Part shown: one piece after another, positions 39,384-61,866 of the stretch
How positions within the stretch are numbered: the stretch's first letter is position 1
Layout of the letters: each line of letters starts with the position of its first letter
DNA from: Promethearchaeota archaeon
GTDB lineage: Archaea; Asgardarchaeota; Lokiarchaeia; Sigyniarchaeales; SOKP01
DNA: 64,000 bases
NCBI GenBank assembly: GCA_019057795.1
Contig: JAHLWS010000005.1
Span: 1 to 64,000 of the forward strand
Direction of reading: 5' to 3'
The notes under the pieces: generated by a model
The model's input: only the letters and a program-made list of their open reading frames with translations
The model's database searches: none
What the model was told of the DNA's origin: nothing
Made by a program: the position numbers and the translations under genes

Positions 39384-39782
39384 TTAAACCCTGCGCCCCC
39401 TATGGCCCCCCTTGCGCCGGCAATGGTCGTGGGACTTCGGGGTGACTTCTTCTATCCTTCCTACGCGTAGACCAGAACGAGCGAGTGCGCGTATGCATGC
39501 TTGAGCTCCGGGACCGGGTGTTTGGCTTTTATTTCCCCCAGGCGCTCTTACTTTAATGTGAACGCCCAAAACGCCTTTATCTCTAAGATCGTTTGCCACG
39601 CGGAACCCGCACTGCATGGCCGCGTATGGATTCGATTCGTCGCGGTCAGCTTTAACTACCATACCGCCGCTACATTTTGCGAAGGTTTCACCCCCGCTGA
39701 GGTCGGTAGCTGTAACAATAGTATTGTTGTAACTGCTAAAGATGTGAACGATTGCCCACTTTAATTGTTCTTTTTTACTCAT
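39384..39782 (-). CDS. rps11: Small-subunit ribosomal protein uS11
   Basis: The 132-residue protein is a standard archaeal uS11, found at the platform of the 30S subunit where it touches mRNA and 16S rRNA. It has the typical [20 protein letters not shown] (8-27 in part), [19 protein letters not shown], and the basic C-terminus [15 protein letters not shown]. Length and start (ATG 39782) are normal. It is the last of the uS13-uS4-uS11 run, with 13 bp to uS4. It has higher GC than its surroundings, as expected for a highly expressed gene. Confidence 0.97.
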
Positions 39783-39795
39783 ATTAATTATCTCG

Positions 39796-40299
39796 TTAAC
39801 TCTTTTCTTTAACTGTTGTTAGAGGGCTACTGGGAGCGTAACCAATGAAATCTTCTTCTTCTTTTTTTACTATGTAAGAAGGGGCGTTTATTTTCTTACC
39901 TACTACTTGAATGTGGCCGTGAACAATAAATTGTCTCGCTTGATAGATTGTTTTCGCAAACCCTTTCTCAAAGACCAAAGTTTGTAGTCGTCTTTTTAAT
40001 AAGTCTTCTACGGTGAGCGATAACACATCTTCGAATCTTGCTTCTGGACCTACTACGCCGAGCCTGATTAACTTTTTACTTAGCGTTTCTTGAACCTCTG
40101 CGGCTCTTTCTTTTGATAATGTTCTTGATTGTCGTGCTATTCTTCTCCAATTACCCAGCGTGGTACGCATTTTCCAGAATTCTCGTTTATTTCTAAGTCC
40201 ATATTTTCCTAGAAATTCAAGTTCTTCAGCCAACCTTTCTTTTTGAAAGGGATGTTTTGGTTTTTTAAATTTTTTTTTTAAACGTCGTGGGTCTCCGAT
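39796..40299 (-). CDS. rps4: Small-subunit ribosomal protein uS4, apparent ATC start
   Basis: This is an archaeal uS4 of 167 residues with the S4 RNA-binding domain ([20 protein letters not shown]). Homologues begin MGDPRR; here the frame gives [12 protein letters not shown] directly after ATC at 40299-40297. No ATG, GTG or TTG lies between the upstream in-frame TGA (40308-40306) and TTG 40233, which would remove 22 conserved residues. GGTGA ends exactly 6 nt before the ATC. So the gene most likely starts at ATC. It lies 11 bp after uS13. It organises 16S rRNA early in 30S assembly. Confidence 0.9.
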
Positions 40300-40305
40300 T
40301 TTTTG

Positions 40306-40310
40306 TCACC
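40306..40310 (-). promoter_or_regulatory. Shine-Dalgarno GGTGA for uS4
   Basis: GGTGA complements the end of archaeal 16S rRNA (AUCACCUCC). It lies 6 nt before the ATC codon at which the conserved uS4 reading begins, so it decides the start. The same GGTGA is used before hdrA, where the start is a normal ATG 5 nt on. Confidence 0.75.
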
Positions 40311-40799
40311 TTATCCTTGTTTTTGCAATTTTAATCTTCTTCTCAATACGCCGACTACTAGTCCGTGTCGTCCAGTGCTTTTAGTTTTTTGACCTCTTAC
40401 TCTCAGTCCTTGGTGGTGTCGTACTCCTTTGTAGCTTCTAATCCGCTTCATTCTATCTATGTCGCGTCTTACTGACAATTCTAGCCTATTTCCAAAGATG
40501 TGTAAATTTTCTCCGGTAACTAAGTCTTTTTTACGATTAACCATCCACGCGGGGATACCATTTGTAATCGGATCTATAATAATTTCTTCAATTCTGTTTA
40601 AGTCTTTTTCAGGGAGGGCGCCAATTCTTATGTCGGGGTTTATGCCTGCAACCACAATTATTGCTTGAGCGAATCTTCTTCCAATTCCCCTTATTTGAGT
40701 TAATCCATATTCTACTTTCGCGTTTCCATCGACTTGACTTCGAAGTTTGCGAAAGAATAATTTTTCCCGAAAGTTGGTAGGTCTTGTAGTTAAGCTCAT
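40311..40799 (-). CDS. rps13: Small-subunit ribosomal protein uS13
   Basis: The 162-residue protein is archaeal uS13, at the head of the 30S subunit near the P-site tRNA. Typical parts are TQIRGIGRRFAQAI near 32-45, the helix-hairpin region IRIGALPEKDLNRIE, and the basic end MKRIRSYKGVRHHQGLRVRG (given to 20 residues) with TKSTGRHG. ATG 40799 gives the normal start. It is first in the uS13-uS4-uS11 order kept in archaea. Confidence 0.97.
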   Translation of the reverse strand: MSLTTRPTNFREKLFFRKLRSQVDGNAKVEYGLTQIRGIGRRFAQAIIVVAGINPDIRIGALPEKDLNRIEEIIIDPITNGIPAWMVNRKKDLVTGENLHIFGNRLELSVRRDIDRMKRIRSYKGVRHHQGLRVRGQKTKSTGRHGLVVGVLRRRLKLQKQG

Positions 40800-42552: not shown

Positions 42553-42981
42553 CTATTTCGGGTTAATTTTTTGTTTTGGTAGACGAGGAAGAGCTTCGAT
42601 TTTGTTGGTGATGTCTTCTACTGAGTTAAGGAAATTTTCAACTTCGGCTGCAGAGCAGAAATATTGTTGAACCCTATCTTCAGAAAGGCCTATGTGTTTA
42701 AACATCATTTTTAAAAATTTGACGTGTTCGTATGTATTTAAATTTCCTTTTCCAAACTCACATTCACCTTCTTTTCAGGAAATAATAGCTACTCCATCGG
42801 CTCCGTTCAAAAAGCATTCCATTATTAAATGAATTCCAATTCTACCAGTACATCTAACTCTTATTAAATGGAAAGTGTTAGAATACGGTTTTCTCATAGT
42901 GCCTGTTAAATCTGCTACGGAATACCCTCACTTTTCACATCCAAAAGCAATAATATTTCTTTCTTTTACGTTATTTGCCAT
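42553..42981 (-). CDS. vhuD: VhuD/MvhD-type subunit with two selenocysteines
   Basis: Read with UGA as Sec, this is a 142-residue delta subunit that links hydrogenase or formate dehydrogenase to HdrA through a 2Fe-2S centre. It starts MANNVKERNIIAFGCEK, then Sec18 (UGA 42930-42928) and GYSVADLTG. The middle has RVRCTGRIG, and Sec69 (UGA 42777-42775) stands in ISUKEGECEFG, where homologues have GCHxGDCHY. Both UGAs thus fall on family Cys positions. The stop is TAG 42553. It lies 21 bp after hdrA and before the FrhB-like gene. Simple gene finders would miss it. Confidence 0.88.
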
Positions 42982-43002: not shown

Positions 43003-45003
43003 TTAATTTTCAATTTTGGTTGATATTTTCTTCATAACTTCGATTTCACTGCCCGCGATTCCTTTAATTTCCGCCTTAAATTGCTTATCTCTGTAATATT
43101 TTAAATCGATAGCTCGTGCTGGACATGAGGAAACGCACACTCCACAACCTTTACATTTTAACTCGTCAACAACGGCAATTCCATCTTCATTTACGATTAT
43201 TGCTTGATATTCGCATAATTTCTCGCATCTATGACATCCCACGCAGAGGAGCTCGTCAACTTCAGCTATAATTAACTCTTGAACGATAGTATCGTAAGAA
43301 AGCAATGTAGCAGCTTTACTTGCAGCGGCTAATGCTGTAGAAACGGAATATGGAATGTTTTTTGGTCCCGCAGCACATCCACATATGTAAATCCCTAATC
43401 CTTTAGTTTCTTGAGGTTTTAAACACCCGTGAATTTCTGAAAGGAATCCATTGGGGCCTTTACTAAGCCCCATTACATCTATCATTTTATCTGTACCTTT
43501 TGAAGGTATCATCCCTGTTGAACACACTACTAAATCAAAATCCATGTAAGAAACTTCTCCCTCTAAAGAATTGTCGTAAAAGAGTCTCATAGTTCCATCC
43601 TCGTTCAGCTTTATATCGCCCGGTTTTCCCCTTATGAACATAACATTCTGTTCTCTTATATTTCTATAATATTGTTCGTTTCCTTTATCTGTGGTTCTAA
43701 TGTCTATATAGAATATCGTTATTTCCATATCGGGGTATTCCTGCTTTAACAATTGAGCGTTCTTCAAAGAAACGCTACAACAGACAGCTGAACAATAATT
43801 ATTTCCTCTTAACGTTCGGGACCCAACACATTGGATCATAGCTACTTTTTTAGGCGATTTTCCATCGGATATTCTATATACATGCCCCTCGGTTGGGCCA
43901 ATTGGACTTAACAGCCTTTCTAATTCGATTTGTGTAATGACATCAGGATAAATTCCATACATGTACTCGTTACTTTTCAAAATGTTGTATTCGTCCCATC
44001 CAGTTGCGACAATAACAGCGCCTACAGCAATATCGAGGATTTCGGGTTCTTGATCAAAATCGACCGCTTCACTAGGGCAATCTCTTTCACAATTTTTACA
44101 GTCTATACACACATCCATATCGATTACGGCATACTTTGGCACCGCTTGCGGAAAAGGAATATAAACTGCTCTTCTTTCTCCAAATCCTCGATCAAACTTA
44201 TTAAGGATCGTAATTGGACATTTTATCGAGCATAAACCACATCCTGTACACTTTTTTTCGTCAATATATCGAGGATTTTTTCTGATTTTAAACTTGAAAT
44301 TTCCAGTTATACCACTAAATTCTATAACATCGCTATAGGTCAGTAAAGTTATATTGGGATGTTTCGAAGCATTTACCATTATTGGGGCTAAAACTCAAAT
44401 TCCACAATCGTCAGTAGGGAAAATTCTATCGAGCTGTGCCATTTTTCCGCCTATGGTTGGTTCTTTTTCGACCAAATAAACAGATATTCCTTGACTGGCC
44501 AAATCTAACGCGGCATTCATCCCCGCAATTCCAGCACCAATTACTAAAGCTGCTTTAGTTACTGGTATTTCTTTTCGTGGAACGGCTTCTAATTCTCGAG
44601 CCCGATTTATTCCTGCTAATATTAACCTTTTTGCTTTTTCTGTCGCTTTTTCTTTATCGTCTTGATGAACAAAGGAGCAGTGTTCTCTGAGATTTACCAT
44701 TTCAAAATAGTAGGGACTTAATCCTGCTTCCTGTAATACAGCTCGGTATGTGGGTTCGTGAATTTTAGGAGTGCAGGCTGCGACCACTACTCTATTTAAA
44801 TCTAATTCTAATATATCGTTTTTGATTATTTGTTGTCCAGGATCGCTACAAGTGAAATTATTAACTCTTGCTATGACTACGTTAGGCAAAGGCTCAACAA
44901 AGTCTCTTACAGCATCGCAATCAACGTGAGCTCCTATATTAACGCCTCATCTACAAATGTAAACTCCTATTCTTAGTTTATCGATGGTCTGTTTATCAGA
45001 CAT
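43003..45003 (-). CDS. hdrA: Heterodisulfide reductase subunit HdrA with two selenocysteines
   Basis: With UGA as Sec this is one 666-residue HdrA. The start ATG 45003 follows GGTGA by 5 nt. Sec19 (UGA 44949-44947) lies in YICRUGVNIGAHVD, where homologues have CxCG. Sec203 (UGA 44397-44395) lies in DDCGIUVLAPIM, at the Cys/Sec seen in other HdrAs. The FAD site is VIGAGIAGMNAAL at about 155-167. Two 4Fe-4S motifs begin near 252 (CTGCGLC) and 299 (CIDCKNC), and two more lie near the end (CVGCHRC, CKGCGVC). HdrA bifurcates electrons between ferredoxin and a disulfide. Sec in HdrA is known in methanogens and Lokiarchaeota. Confidence 0.93.
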
Positions 45004-45488: not shown

Positions 45489-45589
45489 GATTTTGGATTA
45501 TTCTTACAAATATCAATAATTTTCATAAATTAATTTAATGATTATTTATAATAGAAATTAGAAATTTTAAATTTTAATGGGATTAAAAC

Positions 45590-46873
45590 TTGCGAGATAT
45601 TGAAGATTTTAGAAGAAATTTCAAAAAAATCGTTGAATCAGAGAAGAAGAGATTTAATAATCCTGTTAATGCAGAAAGAGTATGTGAATACGATCAAAAG
45701 TGGAAAAGCGTCCTACAAGAAATTCAAGACTTAAGAAAACAAAGAAACGAAATTTCTAGTAAGATTAGCGCTTATAAGAAATCGGGCGATAATGTAAAAG
45801 CCGAGAAAGCGATAAAGGAATCAAAGCAAATTAAGGAAAAAATTGACGAGTTGGAAAAGAAGAGAATCGAATATATCAATAAAAGAGAAAAATATCGATA
45901 TTATGTGGGGAATGATCTACACGAATCGGTTCCTATTGGTGAAACGGAAGAGAGCAACGAAATAGTAAGAACTATTGGAGATTTGCCTAAATTTGATTTT
46001 AAACCTTTATCACATGTATTTCTAATTGAGAAAATTAATGGAGCAGATACAAAGAAGGCATCTGAAGTGGTGGGGTCAAGGTTTTATTACTTAAAAGGGG
46101 ATATGGTGCTACTTAATTTAGCTCTCATTAGATTTGCTTTAGATAAGTTGATAAGCAAAGGTTATACTCCTTTATGGACCCCATTCTTTATAAAGCACGA
46201 AATTATGAAAGCAGCTGCAGAATTGGCAGATTTTGAGGAACAATTATATAAAATACAAGACGAAGATCTCTATATGATTGCTACATCAGAACAGACTTTA
46301 GCTGCTTATCATTACAATGAGATTATTGATCCTAATTTGTTTCCACTAAAATATGCGGGAGTATCATCTTGTTTTAGGAGAGAAGCAGGTTCACATGGAA
46401 AAGACACTCTGGGAATATTTCGAGTACATCAATTTGAAAAAGTGGAACAATACGTTTTTTGTAAACCTGATAATTCGTGGAATATCTTCGAAGAATTAAT
46501 AACAAACGCAGAAGAGATTTATAAAGAATTAAATATTCCTTATCGAATTGTTAATATCGCCTCTGGCGAATTAAACGATAATGCCGCTAAAAAGTACGAT
46601 CTTGAAGCTTGGTTTCCTGCTTCCGAAAAATATCGAGAATTAGTCTCGTGCAGTAATTGTTTAGATTATCAAGCAAGAAAATTAAAAATAAGAGTTGGAA
46701 AAGTGGGTTCTACTCAAAAAAAAGAAATCGCACACACCCTAAATTCCACTGCGGTCGCGACTGAACGTACAATTTGTTGTATTTTAGAGAATTATCAAAA
46801 TGAAGATGGTTCTGTTAGGATACCAAAAGCTTTACAACCTTATATGAATGGTAAAAAATTATTAAACTCATAA
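45590..46873 (+). CDS. serS: Seryl-tRNA synthetase
   Basis: The 427-residue protein is a class II SerRS of the common type. The N-terminal coiled-coil arm (about 25-95) grips the long arm of tRNA-Ser. Motif 2 is SCFRREAGSHGKDTLGIFRV near 262-281 and motif 3 is NSTAVATERTICCILENYQ near 385-403. It joins serine to tRNA-Ser, which in this organism also begins selenocysteine synthesis on tRNA-Sec. The start is TTG 45590 (read as Met), giving MRDIEDFRRNF; no in-frame ATG lies before it. A coiled-coil gene follows 25 bp later. Confidence 0.95.
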   Translation: MRDIEDFRRNFKKIVESEKKRFNNPVNAERVCEYDQKWKSVLQEIQDLRKQRNEISSKISAYKKSGDNVKAEKAIKESKQIKEKIDELEKKRIEYINKREKYRYYVGNDLHESVPIGETEESNEIVRTIGDLPKFDFKPLSHVFLIEKINGADTKKASEVVGSRFYYLKGDMVLLNLALIRFALDKLISKGYTPLWTPFFIKHEIMKAAAELADFEEQLYKIQDEDLYMIATSEQTLAAYHYNEIIDPNLFPLKYAGVSSCFRREAGSHGKDTLGIFRVHQFEKVEQYVFCKPDNSWNIFEELITNAEEIYKELNIPYRIVNIASGELNDNAAKKYDLEAWFPASEKYRELVSCSNCLDYQARKLKIRVGKVGSTQKKEIAHTLNSTAVATERTICCILENYQNEDGSVRIPKALQPYMNGKKLLNS

Positions 46874-49655: not shown

Positions 49656-50510
49656 TTACGTTTGGTATGGAGCTTTTGCGGGAGTTAACTTAATTTCTTT
49701 CGTTTCTGAACTAATAAAGTGTTTAAATAAGTGTTCATAACCAATAATTTGGTTTATTTTACCGTTTTCTAACCATATTCCGGATGTATACTCCGGAGCT
49801 TCTTTAACTTGATCAAGTGTAGTTAATAGAAATCCATAATCCGCAATCAATAAACCGAAAGGAATTACATTATCGCCTTCAATTGAATGTATTTTAACAG
49901 AAATTTTTAATAGCTTTTTAATTTCTTCTTTTAAATCCTCAAAATACTTAAAGGCAATTATAATTTCCATATCGGATGAAAATTTTTTGTTCCATAATTC
50001 CTTTAAAATCCATTCGTATCCTCCTAATTCTCCCATCAGTAAATCAGGCGTTATTATAAAATAAATCCGGTTTTCTGAAGAGCTAATTAATTCCTTAATT
50101 TTTGCTCTAATTTTTTCTCGAGAATTTATTGCCCATACTCTGGGTTCTGATTCTTCTTTATCGATTTCCAATTCTGTTATGGCTTTTTCTAGCGTTATTG
50201 TATCTGCGATTTTCTTTTTGTATTGGTCTCTAATAGTTTTAAATATTTTTTCAATAGGAATAACTTGGTAATTTGCGCCCCTCTTTACCGGTTCTTTTTG
50301 GATAAAGCCTTTCTCAATTAACCGGTTAAGACTATCGTATACTCTAGCACGATCGACTCCAGAAAATCTTGCTATATCTGCGGGACTTAAAATTTTATAT
50401 TTGGCAAGAGTTAGTAAAACTTTAGAATCGTTTTTAGTAAATCCCAACGATTGTAGAGAGAGTTCGATTTCTGATTCTTCAAGCTTTATAATACCACGAC
50501 TAAACGTCAA
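49656..50510 (-). CDS. TrmB-family transcription regulator
   Basis: The 284-residue protein starts with the TrmB winged helix: LQSLGFTKNDSKVLLTLAKY at about 19-38, then ADIARFSGVDRARVYDSLNR and a wing with KRGANYQV. A PLD-like or ligand domain fills about 125-270 (VWAINSREKIRAKIKELISS, IYFIITPDLLM). Members bind sugars or other small ligands and control nearby transport or metabolism genes. The start is TTG 50510. The operator is not visible. It stands alone before a long gap. Confidence 0.9.
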   Translation of the reverse strand: MTFSRGIIKLEESEIELSLQSLGFTKNDSKVLLTLAKYKILSPADIARFSGVDRARVYDSLNRLIEKGFIQKEPVKRGANYQVIPIEKIFKTIRDQYKKKIADTITLEKAITELEIDKEESEPRVWAINSREKIRAKIKELISSSENRIYFIITPDLLMGELGGYEWILKELWNKKFSSDMEIIIAFKYFEDLKEEIKKLLKISVKIHSIEGDNVIPFGLLIADYGFLLTTLDQVKEAPEYTSGIWLENGKINQIIGYEHLFKHFISSETKEIKLTPAKAPYQT

Positions 50511-51058
50511 GATTGGAATCTAATTCTTTTTTTATTTAGTATTAAATATCTAATTTTAAAACTATTATTTAATTTTAATTTTTCAGAAAAAAAATAATTA
50601 AATTGACACTTTTATTAAAACGTCTAATTTTGTTAAATATTTGATGACATGCATAAAAAGGTACTTTAAGCTAAAAATCCTATTGTTTAAAACTCAAATG
50701 TTAATTTAATAAAAAATGAAGATTTCGAATATTTACATGATGTTAAATCTTTAATAAAAAAAGAAGATTTCGAACTTTTGCATGAAATCCTTTTTAAAAT
50801 CTCATTCTAGTGAAATTAAACAATCAAAAAAAAATTATTCCCAATTTAATAAATTTTAAAAATTTATTTTAATAATGGTATTTTGTCGGAGTAATAATCT
50901 TTAGTAAATTTTAGATACATAATAACTAATTAACAAAATTTCCATAAAGTATTATTCCGAACCATAATATTTATATAATAGAAAATCGTAGTTATTATTA
51001 ATTATAAATTTAAATTAAAACAGTTCAATTTAAAAAAAAATTTGTGGAGGAATAAATC
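50511..51058. other. Intergenic, 548 bp, before the histone gene
   Basis: Mostly promoter DNA for the histone gene. Near 50720-50810 a plus-strand frame with no start reads NEDFEYLHDVKSLIKK then EDFELLHEILFKISF, a short internal repeat (EDFE-LH) that looks like a gene remnant. Confidence 0.45.
50970..50979 (+). promoter_or_regulatory. Probable TATA box of the histone gene
   Basis: TTTATATAAT lies about 80 bp before the histone ATG with an A-rich leader after it, so transcription could begin near 51003. The leader ends in a strong Shine-Dalgarno, GGAGG, 8 nt before the ATG. Confidence 0.6.
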
Positions 51059-52486: not shown

Positions 52487-53008
52487 TTATCCAAACTCTT
52501 CAAAAAATTCCTTATTAAGAAATTTATCGATATTATTCTTTAATTTTTTCCTGACGGAATCCAATCCTTCAGGAACAATTCGAGTTTTGCTAAAAATATC
52601 AATATATCCTAATTCTGAGCCATATCTTGGAACTAAATGGAAATGTAAATGTTCTAAACTTGCTCCAGCGTCTTTTCCTTGATTAATTCCAATATTATAC
52701 CCCATTGGATTGTATAATTCATCGAGTAATAATTGTAAGCCTTGAATCGTTCTTGATATATGGACGATTTCTTCTTTCTTTAAATCGGTAAATTTTGTGA
52801 TATGACGATTTGGAACGCACATGAGATGTCCGGGATTGAAGGGATATAAGTTTAACACAACAAAGCAGATTTCATCTTCGTAAATTTTTAATAAAACTAC
52901 TCTTTCGTCATTCATTCTGATAGAGCATAAAAGACAATCAACATCGGGTTTTGCTTTTCCTTGAACATAATCTAATTTTCCTAACGCCTGTAACCATTTC
53001 TCGAAAAT
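52487..53008 (-). CDS. HIT-family protein, apparent ATT start
   Basis: The HIT signature HLHFHLVPR is near the C-terminus and GKDAGASLEH precedes it, so this is a nucleotide hydrolase or transferase of the Fhit/GalT-like HIT group. The first ATG (52915) would cut off a conserved N-terminus: upstream, the frame reads KWLQALGKLDYVQGKAKPD, then CLLCS, the CxxC usual at HIT starts. The only likely start is ATT 53008-53006, 6 nt after GGTGA, as in uS4. An ATG at 53026 is followed by TGA at codon 4, so it would work only with stop read-through. Confidence 0.88.
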   Translation of the reverse strand: MFEKWLQALGKLDYVQGKAKPDVDCLLCSIRMNDERVVLLKIYEDEICFVVLNLYPFNPGHLMCVPNRHITKFTDLKKEEIVHISRTIQGLQLLLDELYNPMGYNIGINQGKDAGASLEHLHFHLVPRYGSELGYIDIFSKTRIVPEGLDSVRKKLKNNIDKFLNKEFFEEFG

Positions 53009-53014
53009 TACATT

Positions 53015-53020
53015 TCACCT
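53015..53020 (-). promoter_or_regulatory. Shine-Dalgarno AGGTGA for the HIT gene
   Basis: AGGTGA ends 6 nt before the ATT codon chosen as start, the same spacing and core as before the ATC of uS4. The UGA inside it also closes the frame that starts at ATG 53026. Confidence 0.65.
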
Positions 53021-53037
53021 ACTCATCAAATTAATTG

Positions 53038-53556
53038 TTATGAATATAAAGAGAAATCTGAAGTAAAATCTTTAGATTTAGAAAAATCTCCGGGTTTGAT
53101 TTTACCTATGCAATATTCATTAAGAATCATGTTTGAATAAGCCGCACAAGTAAATACCTTACGTATGCTTTTAAAAAACGAATTTTTTGAAATAGTACCA
53201 TCTTTTTTAAGGAAAATTTGATCGCTTATTTCGTATCGAAATTTCTGTGTATCGATTCTAAAAAAAACGTCACGAATTAGAAAAAATTTCCTCAAATCCA
53301 TAAAATATTGTAATTTTTTGTTATCTTCTAAAGCGTTTAAGGCATCCACTTGTTGAGGGGCTATTTGAATTGGGTTAGAAATTATAATTAAATCTTTATT
53401 TTTAGGTTTTAAAACAACCATTTTTGTTTTAAAACAAACAAATTGAAAGCCAAATTCAAGTTTTTTATCATCAATTGGAATTTTTTTTCTTAAAAGACCT
53501 TCATCTAATAGATATTCTTGGATTAGATGTTTTATATTACTCTCGTTGTCAGTCAT
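53038..53556 (-). CDS. Hypothetical protein, 172 aa
   Basis: A soluble protein of mixed strands and helices with no motif I know. Parts such as FGFQFVCFKTKMVVLKPKN (about 50-68) and a late KVFTCAAYSNMILNEYCIGK suggest a compact domain. ATG 53556 is clear. It is co-directional with the HIT gene, 12 bp before the HIT ATG at 53026 but about 30 bp before the ATT. Probably an Asgard- or archaea-specific protein. Confidence 0.6.
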   Translation of the reverse strand: MTDNESNIKHLIQEYLLDEGLLRKKIPIDDKKLEFGFQFVCFKTKMVVLKPKNKDLIIISNPIQIAPQQVDALNALEDNKKLQYFMDLRKFFLIRDVFFRIDTQKFRYEISDQIFLKKDGTISKNSFFKSIRKVFTCAAYSNMILNEYCIGKIKPGDFSKSKDFTSDFSLYS

Positions 53557-53703
53557 TATTATACGTAATCTTTGATTCGATATAAACGTACAATTTTTAA
53601 GGGATGGATTAATTTCCTTATAATTACTTAAATCTTGAAATTATCAATAATAAGAATAAATATATTGCCTAACAATCAGGATTTAGACAATAATCTACGG
53701 GTT

Positions 53704-56282: not shown

Positions 56283-56855
56283 TTAATATACCAAATCGGA
56301 ATATATCGGCCCTGTAGGCGTTAAAACAGACTTTTTTAGTTTTACCTGGCTTATATTGAAAGGTCCAAATTCGAAATTTTTATTCTCGTTAATTAGTTTT
56401 TTTAGCACATCAAAAGTTTTATAATTTACTTTATCCCTTCTCAATCTTCCTATCGTAAGATGTGGTTTGAATCCAGTTCTTTTATCTTTTTGAATTTTCA
56501 ATCGCTCAGATAAGAGTTGTTCTATTATATTTTTAATTTGTTGTAAAAATTGAACATCTCCAATAAGTTTTACCCATAAAACAGAGAATTTGTTAAATTG
56601 ACCTACCCCTCTAAGACTATATTCAATGGTTTTTCCTTGAAACATGCTTTCGTTTACATCTTCTTTCAAAATTTCATAAATTTTTAGTGCCACGGATTCA
56701 GAAATGTTTCCCAAAAATTTTACAGTCATATGAAGGTTTTCTGGTTCTACTACTTTAAGCTTGGGCTGATTTTGTTTTAATCGAGATGAGAAAGCCTGAA
56801 TTTTCTCTATCGTGTTCTTGTCTTTTAATTCGATCGCTATAAATGCTCTAATCAT
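56283..56855 (-). CDS. thpR: RNA 2',3'-cyclic phosphodiesterase (ThpR/LigT)
   Basis: The protein has the two HxTx motifs of the 2H family: HMTVKFLGNI near 42-51 and HLTIGRLRR near 132-140. It opens 2',3'-cyclic phosphate ends of RNA, as in tRNA splicing or repair. ATG 56855 (MIRAFIAIEL) fits the family start better than ATG 56867, which adds four residues. It stands directly before the HAD gene on the minus strand, with no gap, so both are likely translated from one RNA. Confidence 0.92.
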   Translation of the reverse strand: MIRAFIAIELKDKNTIEKIQAFSSRLKQNQPKLKVVEPENLHMTVKFLGNISESVALKIYEILKEDVNESMFQGKTIEYSLRGVGQFNKFSVLWVKLIGDVQFLQQIKNIIEQLLSERLKIQKDKRTGFKPHLTIGRLRRDKVNYKTFDVLKKLINENKNFEFGPFNISQVKLKKSVLTPTGPIYSDLVY

Positions 56856-56898
56856 GACTACACCCAATTAATGTTAATATTACAAGTTTTTTGACGAT

Positions 56899-58980: not shown

Positions 58981-59091
58981 TTTTCTTTGGATGTTCTATA
59001 AAACTTTGAAAAATTCTTCATTTTCTTTCCAGAATTTATTATTAATATTAAATTTGGTTAAGTTTTTATTTATAATAATTCTTTTTTTCTC

Positions 59092-60975
59092 ATGGAAAAA
59101 TTAGGCGAAGATTATATACCTAGACCGGAATACCCTAGACCGCAATTTGTAAGGGCAGATAGTTGGATTAATCTTAACGGGGAATGGGACTTTGCTTTTG
59201 ATGATATAAATAGAGGATTAATTGAACGCTGGTACCTTAAAGAGAGTGCAAACAACTTTGATAAGAAAATAATAGTTCCCTTTTGCTTTCAAAGCAAATT
59301 GAGTGGAATTGAGGACACATCATTTCACGAAGTCTTTTGGTATAGAAAAAAATTTAATATTCAGAAACAATTCGAAAATAAGAAAGTTTTGCTTCATTTT
59401 GGGGCTGTTGATTATAGTTGTGTAATTTACTTAAATGGGGTTTATGTTGGCTCTCATGAGGGTGGTTATATTGGATTTTCTTTAGATATAACAAATTATA
59501 TTGAAGAAAATAATGTTTTGGTTGTTAGAGTAGAAGATCCGAGTCAAGATCTTGAAATTCCCAGAGGTAAACAATACTGGAAAGAGAATATAGAATTGAT
59601 ATTCTACCCTAGAGTATCTGGTATATGGCAAACGGTTTGGTTGGAGTCTCTTTCTCCAGATTACCAAATCGAAGATTTAAAAATTACTCCAGATATTGAT
59701 AAATCTGAAGCTATTTTTGAAATCAATATTAATGGGATGGGTTTCTCAGAGTTATATCTTATAATTAAGGTTTTATTTGATAATCAAATAATCACTCAAG
59801 ATAAAATTAATCTAGATTTCATCGGGAAAATCGGTAAAAAGAAAAATAAGAAAGTAATCAAAGAAAGGATCGAGATTTTCCATAAGAGAATGTTCCATGA
59901 GAATCAATCACGCTTTAATTTCAAGGTTGCAATACCTAACAATTTATTGCATCTTTGGGATGTAGATAATCCAAATTTATACGATCTATCATTAAAAATT
60001 GAAAATGAGAATACAGGTGAGATATATGACGAGATATCAAGTTATTTTGGTATGAGAAAGATATCAATATCAGAACAAGAGAATGAGAATAAGCAAATTT
60101 TGCTAAATTATAAACCCTTATATCAGAAATTGTTTTTGGTGCAGGGGTATTGGCCTGATAGCTTATATACGCCTCCCTCTGATGATCACATTAAAAAAGA
60201 TATTCAACATGTTTTAGATTTTGGATTTAATGGTTTAAGGACACATCAAAAAGCTTTTGATCCTAGATTTTTGTATTGGTGTGATAAAATGGGCGTTTTA
60301 GTGTGGGGAGAGATTGGTAATGCTTACCGTTTCTCTGTGAAATCACAACTTAAACTTATTAACGAATTTGTAGCTGAAGTTGAACGAGATTATAATCATC
60401 CTTCGATTATTGCCTGGGTACCCTTGAATGAAGGTTGGGGTGTCTCCGGAGCAGAGAGGGACCCTAAAAGAGGTTATTATACATCTTCATTATATTTTTT
60501 AATAAAATCAATTGATCCTACTCGATTAATTATAGATGATGATGGATGGTGGCATACGGAGAATAATGATGTGTGTACCCGACACTTTTATTCGACAACT
60601 AATTTTTTACCAGTATCATTAGAGGAAGAAATTAGAAGCCATAAAACCGCAGTTCCAAAAACTTATCTAAAATCATACGAGTATAAAGGTGAACCTATTA
60701 TTTACAGTGAAATAGGAGGATTTGCCTATGATTTTAAAGAAAATGTTGAAAAGAAATGGGGTTATGGAGGATTAATAGAAGATTCTGAAGTTTTATTTGA
60801 AAGAGTAATAGAATTACTTAAAGAATTCGAAGCAAGAAAAGAATGGATTCAAGGCTTCTGTTACACTGAACTTTACGATCAGTTCCAAGAAATAAATGGT
60901 TTATTAACTTTCGATAGAGAACCTAAATTTCCACCGCAGAAATTGAAAGAAAAACTAGATGCAATGTTTTATTAA
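59092..60975 (+). CDS. Glycoside hydrolase family 2 enzyme
   Basis: The 627-residue protein has the GH2 order: a jelly-roll sugar-binding part (about 10-190; RADSWINLNGEWDFAFDD), an Ig-like part (about 195-320), and a TIM barrel. The acid/base Glu is in WVPLNEGWG near 443-451, and YSEIGGF near 537-543 fits the nucleophile Glu. It would cut beta-galactosides, beta-glucuronides or beta-mannosides; the exact sugar is open. There is no signal peptide, so it probably works in the cytosol. It suggests use of plant or algal sugars. The start is ATG 59092. Confidence 0.92.
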   Translation: MEKLGEDYIPRPEYPRPQFVRADSWINLNGEWDFAFDDINRGLIERWYLKESANNFDKKIIVPFCFQSKLSGIEDTSFHEVFWYRKKFNIQKQFENKKVLLHFGAVDYSCVIYLNGVYVGSHEGGYIGFSLDITNYIEENNVLVVRVEDPSQDLEIPRGKQYWKENIELIFYPRVSGIWQTVWLESLSPDYQIEDLKITPDIDKSEAIFEININGMGFSELYLIIKVLFDNQIITQDKINLDFIGKIGKKKNKKVIKERIEIFHKRMFHENQSRFNFKVAIPNNLLHLWDVDNPNLYDLSLKIENENTGEIYDEISSYFGMRKISISEQENENKQILLNYKPLYQKLFLVQGYWPDSLYTPPSDDHIKKDIQHVLDFGFNGLRTHQKAFDPRFLYWCDKMGVLVWGEIGNAYRFSVKSQLKLINEFVAEVERDYNHPSIIAWVPLNEGWGVSGAERDPKRGYYTSSLYFLIKSIDPTRLIIDDDGWWHTENNDVCTRHFYSTTNFLPVSLEEEIRSHKTAVPKTYLKSYEYKGEPIIYSEIGGFAYDFKENVEKKWGYGGLIEDSEVLFERVIELLKEFEARKEWIQGFCYTELYDQFQEINGLLTFDREPKFPPQKLKEKLDAMFY

Positions 60976-61050
60976 ATTAGATTAATTTTTCTTACAGAAT
61001 ATTAGAATTTAAAATTAAAATATTTTAGAATTAGTAGGTTTGAAGTTAAA

Positions 61051-61866
61051 ATGGCGAGACCGTTATGGTTCGTAAATTTGCTGAAAAAAACTTTTCCTAA
61101 TATTAAATTGATAGCTAAATTAACGAGGTTTCCTGTTGTTGGTAAAATCTTTGACTTCCTGTTATTTGAAGGAGACGAAATTATATACCTGACGCAAGAT
61201 AAGGTAATTCCTATTAATAAAGAAGTCAAAAAACAAGCGGAAATGGTGTTACCCTCAAAAGTTTTGGATCACTTTATAGAAAAAGCTAACTACCATTGGG
61301 TAATGAATTTCTGTATATGTCGAGATTCAATGCAGTGCAAAGACTATCCAATAGATTTAGGGTGTTTATTTCTGGGGGAAGCTGTTTTAGGGATTAACCC
61401 TCAATTAGGACGACTTGTAACGAAAGAAGAAGCCCTTGATCATATAAAAAAATGTAAAGAAGCTGGTTTAGTTCATATGATTGGAAGAAATCGATTGGAT
61501 AAGCAATGGCTTGGCGTAAATCCAGGTTATAAACTTCTAAGTATATGTAATTGCGATCCTTGCTGTTGTTTATGGCGTATATCTCCCGTTTTAGCTTCTA
61601 AAATTGGTTCTAAAGTGCAAAAAATGCCAGGAGTCACCTTAGAAGTATCAGAAAGATGTGTGGGGTGCGGAACATGCATGCAAGGAATATGCTTTGTCGA
61701 TGCGATACATATGGTTGACAACCGTGCCAAAATTACTGAAGAATGTAGGGGATGTGGTAGGTGCGTTGAAATTTGCCCCCAAAACGCTATCGAACTCACG
61801 ATAAATGATAAAGAATATGTAGAGAAATCAATCAAACAAATTGAAAAAATTATCGATGTTACCTAG
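61051..61866 (+). CDS. Ferredoxin-type iron-sulfur protein with extra Cys region
   Basis: The last 70 residues hold two 4Fe-4S motifs (CVGCGTCMQGIC, then CRGCGRCVEICP). Before them are further Cys residues: CICRDSMQCKDYPIDLGC near 88-105 and CNCDPCCC near 169-176, which could carry another centre. This layout is found in iron-sulfur proteins of anaerobes with no settled role. The start ATG at 61051 gives an N-terminus with a weak hydrophobic helix. It may serve in ferredoxin-linked redox steps with HdrA or FrhB. It is 75 bp after the GH2 gene and 34 bp before the aminotransferase. Confidence 0.82.
   Translation: MARPLWFVNLLKKTFPNIKLIAKLTRFPVVGKIFDFLLFEGDEIIYLTQDKVIPINKEVKKQAEMVLPSKVLDHFIEKANYHWVMNFCICRDSMQCKDYPIDLGCLFLGEAVLGINPQLGRLVTKEEALDHIKKCKEAGLVHMIGRNRLDKQWLGVNPGYKLLSICNCDPCCCLWRISPVLASKIGSKVQKMPGVTLEVSERCVGCGTCMQGICFVDAIHMVDNRAKITEECRGCGRCVEICPQNAIELTINDKEYVEKSIKQIEKIIDVT

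Follow-up and report, generated by a model that had tools for sequence, protein, structure and literature searches.

In most species of one lokiarchaeal genus, the gene encoding ribosomal protein uS4 very probably begins at an AUC codon, selected through pairing of a GGUGA Shine-Dalgarno (SD) motif with the 16S rRNA tail and decoded by the ordinary initiator Met-tRNA. We draw this reading from sequence comparison, which also suggests that the uS4 start belongs to a wider group of AUU, AUC and AUA (hereafter AUH) starts in the class. The gene lies in a 64,000-nucleotide stretch of contig JAHLWS010000005.1 from a Promethearchaeota archaeon (assembly GCA_019057795.1, positions 1 to 64,000 of the forward strand), which we refer to as the window.

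Results

The uS4 (rps4) coding sequence occupies positions 39796 to 40299 on the minus strand and spans 167 codons from ATC to stop, counting the ATC. Its identity is given by Pfam matches to the S4 domain (PF01479, 4.7e-15) and Ribosomal_S4 (PF00163, 2.2e-4), and the hallmarks of an archaeal uS4 are present, namely the S4 domain, the Ribosomal_S4 N-domain and the M-GDP N-terminus, with the methionine codon replaced by ATC. Immediately upstream lies uS13 (40311 to 40799, minus strand), which has an ATG start and whose TAA stop (40313-40311) directly abuts the uS4 SD. Read along the minus strand, the junction runs from this TAA through GGTGA (40310-40306), CAAAAA (40305-40300) and ATC (40299-40297) to GGAGACCCACGACGT, which encodes GDPRR. 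The initial annotation had placed GDPRR directly after this ATC, with GGTGA ending exactly 6 nt before it, a TGA in frame three codons upstream and no canonical start codon before codon 23, and each of these readings is borne out on the minus strand. The TGA (40308-40306) is part of the SD itself and closes the uS4 frame upstream, and the first ATG, GTG or TTG of the frame is a TTG at 40233-40231. When GDPRR is aligned with the uS4 chains of solved archaeal ribosomes (4v6u and others), its first residue corresponds to residue 2, which puts the ATC exactly at the initiator position, homologous to the AUG of other uS4 genes. Several features of SD-dependent near-cognate initiation are found together at this locus: the codon at the homologous start is not AUG, the frame offers no canonical alternative to it, and a normally spaced SD matches the 16S tail by complementarity.

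As the earliest canonical start, the TTG at codon 23 could in principle be used instead, or uS4 could be made by readthrough or frameshifting from uS13, but we consider a start elsewhere highly improbable. Initiation at codon 23 would delete the conserved GDPRR...KHPF N-terminus, which is intact and under constraint in all species, and since uS13 ends at TAA ahead of the TGA that closes the uS4 frame, a fusion would need readthrough of two stops. In two relatives (L005 and L014), a second stop upstream of uS4 leaves only AAA and ATC before the GGA, ruling out any other shared codon as the start.

We located uS4 in 71 of 83 genomes of the class and read the bases before GDPRR wherever the gene start was present; all genomes compared are metagenome-assembled genomes (MAGs), and named Lokiarchaeota records are Loki_b31, HM4_B22, ABR02, DZG_bin1.240, ABR04, E44_bin85, bin41, ABR11, YT5_023 and YT_039. 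Within the genus of the window, the start position reads ATC in 11 genomes including the source, ATA in one (G010) and ATG in three (G015, G023 and G012), and in all other genera checked it reads ATG, save for one TTG (G068). GGTGA is kept in 11/11 ATC genomes and the six spacer bases vary. In these 11 species a stop closes the frame 3-4 codons ahead of the ATC, and recurrence of GGTGA-N6-ATC at uS4 in 10 other species is more than chance. A search of 227 genomes of the phylum for the pattern GGTG-N4-8-ATH-GDP[P/R/K..] returned uS4 matches in this genus only.

The source assembly is a draft MAG of 87 contigs with 7.5% contamination, and the ATC might on that account be a sequencing or assembly error, or the gene a pseudogene. 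We give this explanation almost no weight, because 10 other MAGs of the genus, from different projects, likewise have ATC there, which excludes an assembly error, the gene is the sole uS4 copy found in the source genome, and its frame runs unbroken to the end and encodes a protein 78-96% identical to those of relatives. The initial annotation had allowed for an intact ATG in relatives and an error in this genome alone. Alignment with lokiarchaeal relatives excludes that case for the ATC clade and, with ATA in one further genome, supports the proposed initiation at AUC as far as sequence can.

Some loci of the genus have peculiarities of their own. In the ATA genome, G010 (L013), GGTGA is shifted by one base and the SD contains an in-frame GTG (GTG ATA GAA ATA GGA), and the start there could be either this GTG or the ATA. 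MAG contigs L011 and L014-L018 end inside uS4 at differing places, probably owing to conserved stretches common to species that occur together. Separately, one uS4 match (G035:C266:4906-5397) contains an internal TAA.

In a tree of uS13, uS4 and uS11, ten ATC species are monophyletic (UFBoot 100), and their sister clade comprises the one ATA and three ATG species; G009, which also has ATC, is placed apart from this clade, and its gene is truncated. Within the clade, the median divergence is 0.57 differences at fourfold sites and a single codon is kept in only 2 of 15 invariant isoleucine columns, indicating that the uS4 start region has been kept over real divergence. Such persistence could reflect a deliberately weak regulatory start, through which uS4 or initiation stringency would set its own level as in bacterial infC: the AUC is unchanged in 10 diverged species in which other isoleucine codons have changed, and uS4 is a classical autoregulator in bacteria. 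We find this quite unlikely. Constraint on the C of the ATC is weakly supported, since 69/316 invariant residues (about 22%) keep an invariant codon anyway, the sister clade has ATA or ATG and other genera have ATG, and a conserved RNA structure or hairpin was not found at the start region, where zero pairs covary. The same type of start also occurs in many unrelated genes, including those for a HIT protein, a thiolase, a GTPase and a helicase.

The first of these is the second AUH-start gene of the window. It encodes a HIT-domain protein (PF01230; 52487 to 53008, minus strand) and came to light in a comparison of the window to syntenic contigs from relatives. Its start reads GGTGA-AATGTA-ATT (53019-53006), such that the SD (53015-53019) stands 6 nt before the ATT (53006-53008) and contributes an in-frame TGA. 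The ATT is conserved in most of genera g1 and g8, where homologues from 21 genomes have ATT, against two with ATA and a few with ATG; in G014 the aligned position reads AGT because of a one-codon shift, with ATT one codon upstream. This gene bears on the idea that uS4 is translated by coupling, with ribosomes that end uS13 at its TAA reinitiating at the nearby AUC without an AUG. The uS4 SD directly follows that TAA and the 12-nt gap before the ATC would suit reinitiation, but the same start type is found in genes without an abutting upstream gene, and at HIT the in-frame TGA does not terminate any gene upstream. We therefore hold coupling to be unlikely as the explanation; it would add to the SD rather than replace it, and may help uS4 but not HIT.

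Additional AUH starts occur in other genes and genomes. uS11 (39384 to 39782, minus strand) has an ATG start without an SD in the source genome, and begins with ATT in the close relative Loki_b31 (GGTGG-TTTTAA-ATT-AGT) and with ATA in two g7 genomes (GGTGA-N6-ATA-AGT). uS13 of TEKIR_8 starts with ATT; starts in the ribosomal protein cluster were defined by homology. A thiolase starts with ATT in three genomes (G000, G021 and G001). In G007, the ATT of a RagA-like GTPase lies two codons ahead of the domain, and the first canonical start comes only at codon 34. Most AUH cases among the HIT, uS11, uS13, thiolase and GTPase genes follow the GGTGA-N6 signal. The candidates extend to an amidohydrolase, a Ras-family GTPase, a JAB protein and a DEAD helicase, and in Harpocratesius FW102 to an FtsX-like permease, a label without a Pfam match.

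Other late-start genes of the window (45587-46870, 49659-50519, 53041-53640, 56286-56867, 59062-60972 and 61006-61863) were rejected as AUH cases, having usable ATG or TTG starts or unclear ends, and the ATA candidates L201:16250 and G053 L141:7318 are weak because an ATG lies within 8 codons downstream. The window also holds an HdrA-like gene (43003-44946, minus strand) that is interrupted by in-frame TGA codons whose positions are conserved, which fits selenocysteine. Beside it, at 42556-42927 on the minus strand, short conserved reading frames separated by TGA look like what we take to be an MvhD-type selenoprotein. Selenocysteine is known in Lokiarchaeota (PMC8211752).

To quantify the association between GGTGA and AUH, we sampled 1.09 Mb of the source genome for open reading frames of at least 100 codons framed by the TGA of GGTGA (n=21). 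At +6, AUH codons were found in 9/21, compared with a background of 9.5% in the same reading frames (p=6.5e-5); GTG or TTG accounted for five and ATG for one. With the window left out, AUH was still found at +6 in 7/19 (p=0.0023). Control NNTGA pentamers other than GGTGA in the same genome gave no AUH enrichment (29/255, p=0.69; ATG, 35/255), and samples from three other genera yielded a weaker signal in the same direction (4/14, p=0.059). Very rough scaling suggests some 20-40 GGTGA-AUH genes per genome. Across orthologues, non-AUG starts were associated with a GGTG-type SD for uS4 (12/13 vs 27/55, p=0.004), uS11 (4/9 vs 1/41, p=0.0025) and HIT (16/21 vs 1/10, p=0.0008), these Fisher p-values being optimistic because orthologues of related species are not independent.

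The 3′ end of 16S rRNA (GGATCACCTCCT) is fully complementary to GGTGA, and the only initiator-type tRNA found in the source genome has the normal CAU anticodon; the pattern used, GGGCTNATAACCC, which interrupted tRNAs could escape, gave CAU there and no GAU, AAU or UAU form. Matches to the pattern with GAU or AAU elsewhere are not tRNAs, and a dedicated AUH initiator tRNA is unsupported. The initiator tRNA gene at G000:C70:174383 (L249) and in relatives L246, L248 and L251 is apparently interrupted in the T arm, its sequence departing after the anticodon arm; L256 (G017) has the uninterrupted form. The SUI1 protein aIF1 is present in G000 and in 18/18 high-quality genomes of the class, which rules out its loss as the cause of AUH starts. 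In Sulfolobus, this factor disfavors start codons other than AUG (PMC6237735, PMC8211752), and given this role its presence counts against the model of AUH initiation.

Discussion

In the model that we favor, pairing between GGUGA and UCACC in the 16S tail would position the 30S subunit and, at the standard 6-nt spacing, bring AUC into the P site. The ordinary initiator Met-tRNA (CAU) would decode the codon there despite a third-position mismatch, and the uS4 product would start with methionine followed by GDPRR. A well-spaced SD may keep the mRNA in place for the time that Met-tRNAi needs to tolerate this mismatch, and genes with strong SDs could consequently lose the G of AUG. Sequence comparison shows the position and conservation of the codon, its SD, the enrichment and the normal anticodon, whereas methionine as the first residue, decoding through the third-position mismatch, relaxed stringency and expression level are inferred.

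Across Lokiarchaeia, a strong and well-spaced SD would likewise permit drift of the start codon's third base. SD-led genes may carry GUG, UUG, AUU, AUC or AUA, and most AUG genes would be without an SD, in line with the observation that SDs are not prevalent in Prometheoarchaeum (PMC7531240). It is conceivable, if somewhat short of probable, that Lokiarchaeia possess two start modes, one consisting mostly of SD-less AUG and the other led by GGUGA and regularly accepting GUG, UUG, AUU, AUC or AUA owing to a relaxed third-position check by aIF1 or tRNAi. If so, AUH would be part of the normal start repertoire, used by some tens of genes in each genome, those for ribosomal proteins among them. 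Gene finders limited to ATG, GTG and TTG will misplace or lose such starts, leading to wrong N-termini in Asgard ribosomal proteins, GTPases and enzymes.

Lokiarchaea are relatives of the ancestors of eukaryotic cells, and eukaryotes tightened AUG selection via eIF1 and scanning; here, by contrast, a strong SD seems to do the work of the start codon's third base. How stringently start codons are chosen in the archaea closest to eukaryotes thus becomes directly testable, with uS4, HIT, uS11, uS13, thiolase and the RagA-like GTPase as a clear test set.

The archaeal start codons named in PMC7531240 are AUG, GUG and UUG only. In the open-licence literature searched, we found no report of AUH starts in Asgard archaea or in archaea generally, nor of a recurrent GGUGA-N6-linked AUH start class in Asgard archaea that reaches ribosomal proteins. 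Non-AUG initiation itself is known, and the closest case is the AUU start of bacterial infC, which encodes IF3 and is autoregulated by it in E. coli. Both involve a near-cognate AUH start behind an SD that is read by initiator tRNA, in a translation gene; infC, however, is a single, IF3-autoregulated bacterial gene, whereas the starts described here are archaeal, occur in many unrelated genes and show no sign of a regulatory element. Archaeal GUG and UUG starts are also one base removed from AUG and in Lokiarchaea follow the same GGTGA-N6 signal, but they depart from AUG at the first position and AUH starts at the third. In Pyrococcus abyssi, aEF1A is SD-led, its GGUGA lying 5-6 nt ahead of the start and pairing to the 16S tail (PMC6237735). 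The pairing and its spacing resemble those proposed here, but the start there is AUG rather than AUC, AUU or AUA, and in the present lineage SDs are otherwise scarce (PMC7531240).
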